A stretch of DNA of 43,448 nucleotides from a bacterium (GCA_021813505.1 JAKAKI010000069.1:32874-76321); one strand, 5' to 3'. Shown: positions 11,864-15,584, counted from the first letter of the stretch. Numbers and translations are program-made. The notes: a model not told the origin generated them from the sequence alone.

Positions 11864-12460
11864 GATCTTCGCACCCCTCTGAAAGTCAGACTATTCCGGC
11901 AAAACGGGGTGAACAAAACGATTTTGATCGAGGTTTTCAAGTCCATTCCGGGTTGCCAAGACTCACCCTGGATGGCAGGATGGGGAGGTTTCATGGTAGA
12001 CTCAAGCAAAGAATACCCCTTTTCTGGCCTCCCGGAACGCCCCGGCGGCAAGCCGCTAACGCGATGCGAGGCAACGCGTTAACTCGTGCGCCAGGATGGT
12101 GCATCCGTGAAAGCCCTTGGTGTGACAAATTTCCCAAAATTCCTCTTGCGTATTTTTTGGGACACTGTATATAGGGCGCCCAAAGCGGGAGCCCGGCCTC
12201 TATCCGATCGCGGAATAAGGAAAGATGCCCCGCACCTGCTGAAACGATGAGATAACAAACATCTCCGAAGAACACTCCATCGGCTCGCTGTCTTGGCGGG
12301 TCTGTTTTTTTTGAGCGGAGTAATTTCCCTTTTCGAAGGGAGGTTGAAGAACAGTAGAGATTTTGAGACAGGTTTCTTAGCAGTCAGTTCAGTTTTCCCA
12401 AGCGAGTCAACTAAGGCAAGTCAACATGCATCGGGGCATAATCCCCGGGGAGGAAAGGAA
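11864..12460. other. Non-coding region between divergent genes, with two hairpins
   Basis: Nearly 600 nt separate the divergent fabL and lipoprotein genes. Two adjacent hairpins lie inside: TAACGCG/CGCGTTA at 12057-12081 (7 perfect pairs, 11-nt loop), and TGCGCC/GGTGCA at 12087-12103 (6 pairs with one G-T, loop AGGAT). No coding frame is convincing. The purine-rich GGAGGAAAGGAA just before 12461 is the lipoprotein ribosome binding site. The region could hold regulatory RNA or repeat debris; no known RNA family was recognised. Confidence 0.6.
12146..12173 (+). promoter_or_regulatory. Possible promoter of the lipoprotein-L,D-transpeptidase operon
   Basis: TTGCGT (12146-12151) and TATATA (12168-12173) are spaced by 16 nt. 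The -35 is weak. If used, the leader to the first gene would be nearly 285 nt; a nearer promoter may exist but was not seen. Confidence 0.3.
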
Positions 12461-13066
12461 ATGAGAAAGTCACTGAAGTTGCTGGTCCTGCCACTGCTCG
12501 TGGCATTGGTTGCCGGCTGTTCAAAGGCACCGGTCGTTGAAGAGAACAACGCCGTGCAGTCTGTCGGCACTGCCGAGCAGGCGCAGGCGTCGAAGTACGC
12601 TCCGGCCGAATGGCGCACCGTCCAGGACACCCTGGAAGCGGCCAAGGCCGAGAAGGCGAAGCAGGACAGCCGTTTTGCTCTGTTCCGTGGTTATGGCAAG
12701 GCGAAGGCTCTGTATGAGAAGGTTCCGGCTCTGGCTGCTGCTGCCAAGACTAAGGCAGAGGCTGAGTTGGCACGCATCCGCCAGGAAACCCAGACCATGA
12801 TCGCCCAGGCCCGTACTGAGCTCGATTCGGCTGCGGCAATGTTGTTGACGGCGCCCGTTGGAAAAGACAACAAGGCGGACATCGAGATGTTGAAGCAGGA
12901 TGTCGCCGCGTCCCAGCAGACGTTGACTGAGGCGCAGGGCGACTTCGACCGTGGCAATTATGACGGTGCCAAGGCGAAGGCGCAGACGATCATCGACAAG
13001 TCCAAGGCAGTCAAGACGGCTGTCGAGGCGGCGATCGCGAAGAAGGGCGGCAAGGGGAAGAAGTAA
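12461..13066 (+). CDS. Alanine/lysine-rich helical lipoprotein (DUF4398-like, possible peptidoglycan-linked)
   Basis: A 201-residue lipoprotein: MRKSLKLLVLPLLVALVAGC gives a lipobox with Cys20. The mature part is almost wholly helical and rich in Ala, Lys, Glu and Gln. The segment from about 44 to 115 (APAEWRTVQDTLEAAKAEKA onward) aligns with the N-terminal part of the next gene's product. The protein ends AIAKKGGKGKK, a basic tail with a C-terminal lysine. The ATG has an excellent GGAGG site, suggesting strong translation; a longer frame to 12293 is rejected for lack of one. It heads a four-gene plus-strand operon containing two L,D-transpeptidases. Braun's lipoprotein is attached to peptidoglycan by its C-terminal lysine through such enzymes, so a similar role is suggested here by inference only. 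Confidence 0.8.
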   Translation: MRKSLKLLVLPLLVALVAGCSKAPVVEENNAVQSVGTAEQAQASKYAPAEWRTVQDTLEAAKAEKAKQDSRFALFRGYGKAKALYEKVPALAAAAKTKAEAELARIRQETQTMIAQARTELDSAAAMLLTAPVGKDNKADIEMLKQDVAASQQTLTEAQGDFDRGNYDGAKAKAQTIIDKSKAVKTAVEAAIAKKGGKGKK

Positions 13067-13090
13067 TACACTTCTCTTCTTTGATATCCG

Positions 13091-13126
13091 ACGGCCGTTC
13101 GCCGTATTAGCAGGCGGAACGGCCGT
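13091..13126 (+). terminator. Intra-operon hairpin, possible attenuator or RNA-stabilising stem
   Basis: ACGGCCGTTC pairs perfectly with GAACGGCCGT, extended by GCC/GGC across a one-base bulge, 24 nt past the lipoprotein stop. No T-tract follows, so it is not a classical terminator. It could make the lipoprotein message more abundant than the downstream transpeptidase genes. Confidence 0.4.
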
Positions 13127-13192
13127 TGGCGTATCAGGTTAAGACCCTTGGGGGCAACAAGAACGTTTAGGGCCCGAAGCGGCCACAATAGC

Positions 13193-14269
13193 ATGAACAA
13201 AAAGCAGCGAATCATAACGTCCGGCGCAGGGATCCTGCTGTGCGCCTTCGTTCTGGCGGGATGTGCCTCCGCGCCGCTCGAACTTTCCCAACAAACCTGG
13301 TCATACCTGAAATCGAGTGATGAGCGCGGCGGCCGGGGAGCGCCGGAAGCCTGGAATCAGGCCCACGCCCAGTACGATTCCGCCTGGCAGATCATCAATA
13401 CGGAAAACGCCAAGTGGTTCTTCCTGCGCGATTATGCCCTTGCAGAGTCGCTGTTGATGCGCGCCAGCACCAGCGCCAATCGCGCGATCATTGTCGCCAA
13501 GGAAAACCGTGACCGTCGCCGCGAGGAACTGGCGAGGCAAATGACCGACTTGCAGGATCGGCTGAACAACCAGCGTGAGGAAGCGGACAACCACCTGGCA
13601 CGTCTGCAATTGCGCGACGCCCTCACACGGGCTGAGTTGAAACTCTCAGTCGCCTGGACCAGCCAGAGATTGGATTCACTCGAACTGATCGAAGCGGCCA
13701 TTGAAGATGCCCGCGCGGCCATCGCCGCCCTTGAAACCCGGTTGGCAGACGATGGAGTCGAAGACGGCCGGCAACCGCGCCAGTGGAAGCAGTGGATCCA
13801 GGAAACCGTCGAATGGACCAAAACCGGAGGTAACGCGCTGGTCGTTCTCAAGGCCGAACATCGCGCGTATCTGGTAAAAAAGGGCCGGATTCTGGATATG
13901 TTTCCGGTCGAGCTTGGCTATCGATCTGCACGCGGAAAGCTGCATTCCGGAGACGCCGCGACGCCCGAAGGACAGTATCGCGTGACCAAGAAGCGGGAGA
14001 CCGGAAGCAAATACTACAAAGCGTTGATGCTGGACTACCCCAATGCGGAGGACAAGGTCCGCTACGACAAGGCGCGCCGTAACGGTGAATTGCCAAAGTG
14101 GGTGCGCATTGGCGGAGATATCGAGGTCCACGGCGAGGGCGGCCGCGGCACCGACTGGACAAAAGGGTGCGTGGCGCTTGCGAACAATGATATGGACCGG
14201 ATAATGTCGTACATGGATGTGGGGGACCGCGTGACCATCGTTCGGCGCGCGGAAGGATGGCCAAAATGA
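13193..14269 (+). CDS. L,D-transpeptidase lipoprotein with N-terminal helical module (YkuD/YafK type)
   Basis: A 358-residue lipoprotein with lipobox FVLAGC (Cys24). Residues 45-190 are helical and resemble the preceding lipoprotein (APEAWNQAHAQYDSAWQIIN aligns with APAEWRTVQDTLEAAKAEKA). Residues 213-352 are a YkuD-type L,D-transpeptidase domain: His313 in IEVHGEGGRG and Cys326 in WTKGCVAL, with ATPEGQYRV (256-264) near the front. The residue before the catalytic GC is Lys rather than the usual His, as in YafK-like members. The enzyme would act in the periplasm on tetrapeptide stems, joining peptides or attaching a protein. The ATG at 13193 lacks a clear ribosome binding site. The next gene overlaps its stop by 4 nt. 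Confidence 0.85.
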   Translation: MNKKQRIITSGAGILLCAFVLAGCASAPLELSQQTWSYLKSSDERGGRGAPEAWNQAHAQYDSAWQIINTENAKWFFLRDYALAESLLMRASTSANRAIIVAKENRDRRREELARQMTDLQDRLNNQREEADNHLARLQLRDALTRAELKLSVAWTSQRLDSLELIEAAIEDARAAIAALETRLADDGVEDGRQPRQWKQWIQETVEWTKTGGNALVVLKAEHRAYLVKKGRILDMFPVELGYRSARGKLHSGDAATPEGQYRVTKKRETGSKYYKALMLDYPNAEDKVRYDKARRNGELPKWVRIGGDIEVHGEGGRGTDWTKGCVALANNDMDRIMSYMDVGDRVTIVRRAEGWPK

Positions 14270-14928
14270 AGAAGTGGATCGTTCTCTCATCCTTCGCCAT
14301 TGTCGCCGTTCTCGTGCTGGTGGTGATCGTCTATCCAAAGCAGGGATTTATTTGGAACGAGCCGGCCCCCACGGCTGATTCGCTGGCGTTGCAGGCACAA
14401 AAGAAACTCGAGGGGAAACAGGGGAACTGTACCGAGCGAGTCGCAGCAACCCGCCCCACACACCGTCCGACCAAAAAGAGCAAGGTCACCAATAAGTACA
14501 TCGTGATCGATTCTCACACCAACCGGCTCTACCTAAGAACCCAGGATAGCGTGCTTTTCACCGCACTTTGTTCGACCGGAACCGGAAAGTCGCTGGTGGA
14601 TAGCGGCAAGGGACGCGTTTGGCGGTTCGACACTCCCAAAGGGGCCTTCCACATCGATTCACGGTTGACCGATCCCTGGTGGCGAAAACCGGATTGGGCG
14701 TTCATTGAGGAAGGCGAGCCCATTCCCAAGAAGGAAGCGGACCGGCTCGACCCCAATATCATGGGCGATTACGCCATCGGCTTCGGCAACGGGTTCTTCA
14801 TCCACGGCACGATCTATGAACGTCTCATCGGTGTTGCCGTGACCCACGGATGCGTCCGGCTGGGCAGTGACGACATCAAGCGGGTGTACGATTCCGCGCC
14901 GGTCGGGACACCGGTCATCATCTTCTGA
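14266..14928 (+). CDS. Membrane-anchored L,D-transpeptidase (YkuD domain)
   Basis: A 220-residue protein with one N-terminal membrane segment (about 5-23, LSSFAIVAVLVLVVIVY), probably an uncleaved anchor or signal peptide. A low-complexity linker precedes the YkuD domain (75-220). The domain begins KYIVIDSHTNRLYLRTQDSV and carries FFIHG (His180) and the full catalytic motif THGCVRL with His194 and Cys196. The ATG at 14266 is chosen over one at 14257 because GGAAGGA then lies at a proper distance; it overlaps the preceding stop as ATGA. It is therefore translationally coupled to the first transpeptidase. It differs from that enzyme by its membrane anchor and canonical motif, suggesting distinct acceptor substrates. 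Confidence 0.9.
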   Translation: MKKWIVLSSFAIVAVLVLVVIVYPKQGFIWNEPAPTADSLALQAQKKLEGKQGNCTERVAATRPTHRPTKKSKVTNKYIVIDSHTNRLYLRTQDSVLFTALCSTGTGKSLVDSGKGRVWRFDTPKGAFHIDSRLTDPWWRKPDWAFIEEGEPIPKKEADRLDPNIMGDYAIGFGNGFFIHGTIYERLIGVAVTHGCVRLGSDDIKRVYDSAPVGTPVIIF

Positions 14929-14936
14929 GGTCTGAC

Positions 14937-15584
14937 GTGCTACACAATCCGAGACGACTGGTGAGGCTGCTGTTGCTGGCGGCCGCCATGCAACTTGCTT
15001 TTGCCGCGAGTGCATTTGCCCAGAAGGATGCGAACGGCGCGTCGATTCCCGGGTGCTTTGTTTCCGATACGGTTTACCACGCGGTCATCGATTTCAAGAC
15101 CAATCACATCGGGATCGTGTATGGCTCAATGCCGCTGGTCACGGTGGAGTTCATGCCGCGTGACGATGCATCGGATGTCGCCAAATTCGCGAAGAAGTGG
15201 AACGACAAGACCAAGTTATCGTGGCAGACAGCGACGACCCGGCACGTGTGGGCGGGACATCCCCAGGTCTCCGACACGGTGATCCGGATTGTTTCGGAGG
15301 TCGCCGACGTCGACCCGGAACGTATTCAGAGATTGCTGCCGGATCGGTTTGACCTGGAGCTGACCGGCGGGTTCCGCCTGAGGTTCATGACACCGGCTGG
15401 CGACTCCGCCAAGAAGGAACTCAGCGAAAAATGGCATGAGTTCAAGAGCCGCTGGAATCCATTCGGCCATGTCAACATCTTCGAAGTGCTCGTCGCTCCC
15501 AAGGATGCTCAGATCCTGTACTACGCTCTGGAGCCAGGAACGCCAATCGTGGCGCTGCCGGCAGATGAGAGCACTGGGAAATAG
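14937..15584 (+). CDS. Periplasmic protein of unknown function
   Basis: A 215-residue protein with a clear signal peptide (LLLLAAAMQLAFAASAFA, cleavage expected before QKD). The mature part shows mixed alpha/beta composition with no recognised family; a lone cysteine occurs in SIPGCFVSD. The start is GTG at 14937, with GAGG 6 nt upstream and 8 nt after the previous stop. It is the last gene of the lipoprotein-transpeptidase operon, so an envelope role is likely. It converges with lipB across a 45-nt gap without an evident terminator. Confidence 0.75.
   Translation: MLHNPRRLVRLLLLAAAMQLAFAASAFAQKDANGASIPGCFVSDTVYHAVIDFKTNHIGIVYGSMPLVTVEFMPRDDASDVAKFAKKWNDKTKLSWQTATTRHVWAGHPQVSDTVIRIVSEVADVDPERIQRLLPDRFDLELTGGFRLRFMTPAGDSAKKELSEKWHEFKSRWNPFGHVNIFEVLVAPKDAQILYYALEPGTPIVALPADESTGK

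Follow-up and report, generated by a model that had tools for sequence, protein, structure and literature searches.

Do four neighbouring genes, encoding a lipoprotein with a basic tail, two enzymes of the YkuD family and an exported protein, form a system that ties the outer membrane to peptidoglycan? The question is raised by positions 12461–15584 of a 43,448-nucleotide stretch of DNA (GCA_021813505.1, JAKAKI010000069.1:32874-76321; hereafter the window) from a member of Candidatus Zixibacteria with a draft genome of 3.9 Mb. An earlier note on the window had proposed here a basic-tailed lipoprotein followed by a YkuD lipoprotein, a membrane-anchored YkuD protein and an exported protein; all four genes (genes 1 to 4, in that order) were found in place, in the same direction on the plus strand. 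In E. coli, the transpeptidases LdtA, LdtB and LdtC attach the lipoprotein Lpp to the cell wall, and the amidase DpaA releases it. Our analysis suggests that the cassette pairs an attacher with a detacher and does not encode two attachers. A self-contained, reversible covalent tether between the outer membrane and peptidoglycan is the best single explanation; we infer its chemistry and advance it tentatively, as somewhat short of an even chance.

The lipoprotein and the enzymes keep constant company. The four-gene order is preserved in 58 relatives, except in one genome (G008, locus L054) that has no gene 2 and a fusion of genes 3 and 4. Recurrent linkage of the lipoprotein to YkuD genes had been set beforehand as a test of the proposal, and it was borne out: a strong lipoprotein match was found in 43 of 132 Zixibacteria genomes, and in 42 of these a YkuD gene adjoins it on the same contig. 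In the sole remaining genome (G020) the lipoprotein lies at a contig end. Both components were present in 42 genomes, the lipoprotein only in 1, YkuD only in 11 and neither in 78 (Fisher p about 5e-23, a value not corrected for shared descent); the lipoprotein–YkuD arrangement is far beyond chance. The cassettes account for 81 of the 100 YkuD hits in the 132 genomes. Exactly two YkuD domains occur in 34 of the 42 cassette genomes, and the host of the window has two, both in the cassette (genes 2 and 3). Among loci from named GTDB species, the cassette was also found in metagenome-assembled genomes labelled Calditrichota or Caldithrix (L067, L085, L071) and in one of Krumholzibacteriia (L070), where it is cut by the contig end. 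All complete named loci, those of Calditrichota included, keep the same gene order, and seven of the eight tested genomes with such loci have exactly two YkuD domains.

The candidate for the tether itself is gene 1 (12461–13066), a helical, DUF4398-like lipoprotein of 201 amino acids, the start of which is preceded by a good ribosome-binding site (GGGGAGGAAAGGAAATG). It carries the lipobox LVAGC, and the lipid cysteine (Cys20 in the window protein) is invariant among the aligned lipoproteins. Its C-terminal tail reads AKKGGKGKK (basic tail residues 194–201). A survey of 49 distinct YkuD-linked lipoproteins revealed a lysine within the last four residues in 45, whereas in a background of 337 genes (a 400-kb sample of the host genome plus the window) 24% had a lysine in the last four residues and 9% a terminal one. 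Of 24 aligned lipoproteins, 19 retain the lysine that closes the last helix (residue 195 in the window protein). The basic tail is conserved, but a strictly terminal lysine is not. Such a tail is compatible with attachment by the cassette enzymes but is not evidence of it. A different lysine, Lys135 (12863–12865), part of the motif APxGKxxKADIEL, occurs without exception in the 24 aligned lipoproteins and is a possible alternative acceptor.

Gene 1 is not a known Lpp: the Lpp leucine-zipper model (PF04728) did not match its protein in the Pfam search and found nothing anywhere in the host genome, while the E. coli control was detected. Its similarity to DUF4398 (PF14346) falls below threshold (15.9 bits against a gathering cut-off of 27.9); this model is matched by 22 of 24 lipoprotein relatives at E < 0.1, most of them weakly (best 1.1e-6). 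Most of four short DUF4398-like lipoproteins of Calditrichota have no lysine tail.

Gene 2 (13193–14269) encodes a second lipoprotein, composed of an N-terminal helical module (13193–13792, residues 1–200) and a C-terminal YkuD domain (13835–14239). The earlier note had remarked that the N-terminal half resembles gene 1, and sequence comparison shows that the two are homologous: BLASTP of the pair gave E 9e-6, and profile–profile comparison gave E 1e-19 over 177 columns, nearly the whole lipoprotein. Ten of 22 gene 2 proteins match DUF4398 (PF14346), most weakly. In the AlphaFold model of gene 2, the N-terminal half is long and helical and the C-terminal half is a YkuD domain.

The YkuD domain of gene 2 (PF03734, E 7.8e-18, residues 215–349) contains His313 (14129–14131), Cys326 (14168–14170), Ala328 and Lys249, all invariant in 22 sequences. 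In its motif DWTxGCxA, Ala328, two residues after the cysteine, replaces the arginine of the transpeptidases, and Lys249 aligns with Lys83 of DpaA, so that the protein combines the YkuD cysteine, the alanine (or asparagine) two residues after it and the lysine expected of a DpaA-like enzyme, with alanine as the residue found here. DpaA has been set apart from transpeptidases by the loss of the same arginine (PMC8263019) and by Lys83, which carboxypeptidases also have (PMC10653827). The domain profile of gene 2, run against the six YkuD proteins of E. coli, favoured DpaA (36.9 bits) over LdtA (18.1, the next best) and LdtB (16.1), and the closest solved structures by sequence (DpaA, Csd6, Pgp2 and Bd1075) are all hydrolases. 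The tryptophan of the D-Ala pocket (Trp158 in Csd6) corresponds to Glu311 in gene 2, and to Glu or Gln in all 22 sequences, so gene 2 is no plain Csd6-type carboxypeptidase. The loop SKYYKAL..YPN..D is nearer to SRYYKAI..FPN..D of DpaA. Gene 2 thus looks like a DpaA-type hydrolase, with a predicted cleavage of the amide between lysine and meso-diaminopimelate; in view of its resemblance to the Lpp-detaching DpaA, the tether would be reversible.

Gene 3 (14257–14928) overlaps gene 2 by 13 nt in the window, and an overlap is present in 22/22 cassettes examined. Its product has an N-terminal membrane helix, by which it is predicted to be anchored, and a clear YkuD domain (PF03734, E 9.6e-22, 78.6 bits against a cut-off of 23.4) with the motif IHGTIYERLIGVAVTHGCVRL (canonical THGC-x-R). 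His183, Cys199 (14851–14853) and Arg201, the transpeptidase arginine two residues after the cysteine, are invariant in 21 sequences. The gene 3 profile scored LdtB at 51 bits, LdtA at 48, LdtC at 38, LdtE at 35 and DpaA at 3; gene 3 is in this respect attacher-like, nearest to the Lpp-attaching LdtB, LdtA and LdtC of E. coli. A tree of 59 YkuD domains separated the two enzymes (branch support 98/96): gene 2 fell with six standalone Zixibacterial YkuDs and DpaA, and gene 3 with LdtA–E and two standalone YkuDs, while the exact joins are unsure because of long branches. The two enzymes had been described as two L,D-transpeptidases; both do belong to the Pfam YkuD family (PF03734), but for gene 2 the description was rejected on the basis of residues, profiles and the tree, which place it on the DpaA side. 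Standalone YkuD proteins outside the cassette (L127–L133) mostly resemble gene 2, and one of these loci (L127) contains two in tandem with no lipoprotein.

Between genes 1 and 2 lies a gap of 126 nt with a stem-loop (13075–13144, plus strand), a candidate attenuator or terminator, or a 3' stabiliser. In 22/22 cassettes examined, the gap 3' of gene 1 (92–321 nt) bears a hairpin in the same place, of unrelated sequence. The hairpin beats mononucleotide shuffles (z at or below -2) in 18 of the 22, and that of the window reached z -3.7 against dinucleotide shuffles. Owing to such a hairpin the lipoprotein could be made in excess of the enzymes, as a structural tether would need; the hairpin may also be an ordinary terminator. 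Scans for sigma-70 promoters and terminators gave counts no higher than expected by chance. A terminator-like hairpin with a T-run was seen about 150 nt upstream of gene 1 (12282–12310, plus strand), and such sites are as frequent as chance.

For the exported protein encoded by gene 4 (14937–15584) no family was found, and none of the 27 gene 4 matches has the catalytic HG..GC motif. Its AlphaFold model (predicted local distance difference test score, pLDDT, of 81) has a weakly YkuD-like fold: Foldseek gave 26 matches below 1e-3 (best E 1.7e-4), and all 50 PDB matches listed were of YkuD type, but with a template-modelling (TM) score of about 0.36. By hhalign, the probability of a relation to YkuD was 24%, and a gene 4 profile prepared without the L054 fusion gave a few weak YkuD matches (best 4e-5). 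An apparently clear pseudo-YkuD assignment was rejected, since the profile matches of 1e-4 to 1e-10 came from the fused L054 protein in the profile; matches to TAL effectors were dismissed as repeat artefacts. In that fusion (L054:5014-6072, G008), genes 3 and 4 form one protein in a genome with no gene 2. We take gene 4 to be, most probably, a degenerate, non-catalytic relative of the YkuD proteins and a partner of gene 3. In isolate UBA10806 (L050/L082), gene 4 contains an internal run of unknown bases, and its C-terminus lies on a second piece in another frame.

Taken together as a working model, the parts of the cassette would operate as follows. The gene 1 product, long and helical, would be lipidated, moved to the outer membrane and reach from there toward the wall. 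From its anchorage in the inner membrane, gene 3 would join a lysine of the basic tail of gene 1 to the meso-diaminopimelate of stem peptides, possibly with gene 4 as a non-catalytic partner. Gene 2, held in place by the module homologous to gene 1, would hydrolyse the bond between lysine and wall, as DpaA does for Lpp, and the stem-loop after gene 1 would let the lipoprotein exceed the enzymes in amount. The proposal of a tethering system is partly supported: it draws on the linkage, the invariant cysteine, a lysine-rich end above background and an attacher-like enzyme, and it loses ground through the unconserved terminal lysine and the tails of unlinked homologues.

Several observations weigh against the covalent tether. 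The conservation of the C-terminal lysine, which the earlier note had put forward for testing, was not found: the last residue of the 49 linked lipoproteins is K in 28, R in 9, M in 5 and another residue in 7, and one lipoprotein (L040) ends in ENMP with no lysine among its last six residues. Moreover, 10 of 11 homologues unlinked to YkuD also have a lysine in the last four residues, and 5 of the 11 sit in genomes with no detected YkuD. The tail is therefore no signature of the enzymes, and the idea that it marks linkage to them was discarded. The lack of a terminal lysine is not fatal to tethering, because LimB of Coxiella is attached to the wall through an internal lysine (PMC12274547, PMC12729407).

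The variable C-terminal residue, and the lysine tails of homologues that are unlinked or whose genomes have no YkuD, would also suit a lipoprotein that is no substrate but a partner without covalent attachment. As a scaffold or activator in the outer membrane, like LpoA or LpoB for penicillin-binding proteins, it would assemble with the homologous module in gene 2 so as to position or activate the YkuD enzymes, its tail binding the wall or the enzymes by charge. The cis fusion of the module with the YkuD domain of gene 2 fits such a general carrier or scaffold, as does a locus (L061:5315-6376, G046:C282) where the module is fused to an apparent cyclophilin-type peptidyl-prolyl isomerase, a C-terminal sequence judged by eye. 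This explanation, however, accounts neither for the pairing of a DpaA-side enzyme with one of the Lpp-attaching side nor for a hairpin by which the lipoprotein would be expressed independently of the enzymes, and we regard it as rather unlikely.

The activities predicted for the enzymes also meet with objections. Gene 2 scores far below the cut-off of the curated DpaA equivalog model (NF040599; 25.8 against 365 bits), a model also matched by 21 of 22 gene 2 relatives (best E 7.6e-11), and standalone YkuDs of the gene 2 type occur without the lipoprotein; consequently, DpaA-like chemistry is not assured. LdtE is a 3-3 cross-linking enzyme, and since it groups with LdtA–C, the affinity of gene 3 alone does not indicate an attacher. 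This placement of LdtE, together with the relationship of gene 2 to Csd6, Pgp2 and Bd1075 and the supply of most YkuD enzymes of these genomes by the cassette, would be expected if its role were wall remodelling, in which gene 3 makes 3-3 cross-links like LdtE, gene 2 is an L,D-carboxypeptidase trimming stem peptides, and the lipoprotein module does no more than keep the machinery in place at the outer membrane. We consider this unlikely: gene 2 has Glu311 in place of the D-Ala-pocket tryptophan and a loop nearer to that of DpaA, and the separate expression of the lipoprotein would be left unexplained.

Gene 3 might also attach some other protein, such as a beta-barrel via an N-terminal Gly or Ala, which gene 2 would release, the lipoprotein being accessory. 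The DpaA authors do propose that DpaA-like enzymes free wall-bound beta-barrels in Alphaproteobacteria (PMC8263019), and acceptors besides Lpp are known (PMC12729407). Nevertheless, the constant companion gene of the enzymes is the lipoprotein, and we hold this possibility to be very improbable. Finally, with seven OmpA-domain hits in the host genome, the cell has other means of connection to the wall, which also counts against the covalent tether.

In its general plan, the reversible tether proposed here is comparable with Lpp and LdtA/LdtB/LdtC plus DpaA of E. coli: both have a lysine near the lipoprotein C-terminus, an attacher-like YkuD with Arg and a DpaA-like YkuD with Ala. The lipoprotein of the cassette is, however, unrelated to Lpp, being DUF4398-like, of 201 instead of 78 amino acids, and with a terminal lysine that is not invariant. 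The components here form one cassette, with a module in the detacher-like enzyme that is homologous to the candidate substrate, and with an additional fourth gene; it occurs in Zixibacteria and related phyla, not in Gammaproteobacteria. That the cassette is an independently evolved, complete reversible tether (non-Lpp substrate, attacher, DpaA-like detacher carrying the module of the substrate and non-catalytic YkuD-like partner) is conceivable, though doubtful.

Wall attachment outside Lpp is exemplified by Coxiella LimB27, BpbA/B, OMP25, Lpg1810 and OutB, LimB being a lipoprotein attached via an internal lysine; in the consulted parts of the report (PMC12729407) these cases are proteobacterial, and no cassette with a module shared between enzyme and substrate is described. 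Csd6, Pgp2 and Bd1075 are YkuD hydrolases near gene 2 by sequence, Bd1075 also by predicted fold, but they have an aromatic D-Ala pocket, the tryptophan of which is replaced by Glu in gene 2. The window lipoprotein differs from DUF4398 (PF14346) proteins in its score below the cut-off, its greater length than the model and the YkuD genes 3' of it. The portions consulted of the literature on DUF4398, Zixibacteria peptidoglycan and Caldithrix lipoproteins contained nothing evidently on point.

The cassette names a concrete candidate substrate, located in the same cluster as the enzymes and sharing a module with one of them. If the reading as a reversible tether is true, covalent and reversible anchoring of this kind for the outer membrane has more than one evolutionary origin. 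Even with the lipoprotein as a mere partner, this is an envelope cassette that was not found described in the literature searched and that holds most YkuD enzymes of the phylum.

The genes flanking the cassette in the window are unrelated to it and lie on the opposite strand: a short-chain dehydrogenase gene upstream and a gene of the lipoate-protein ligase family downstream.

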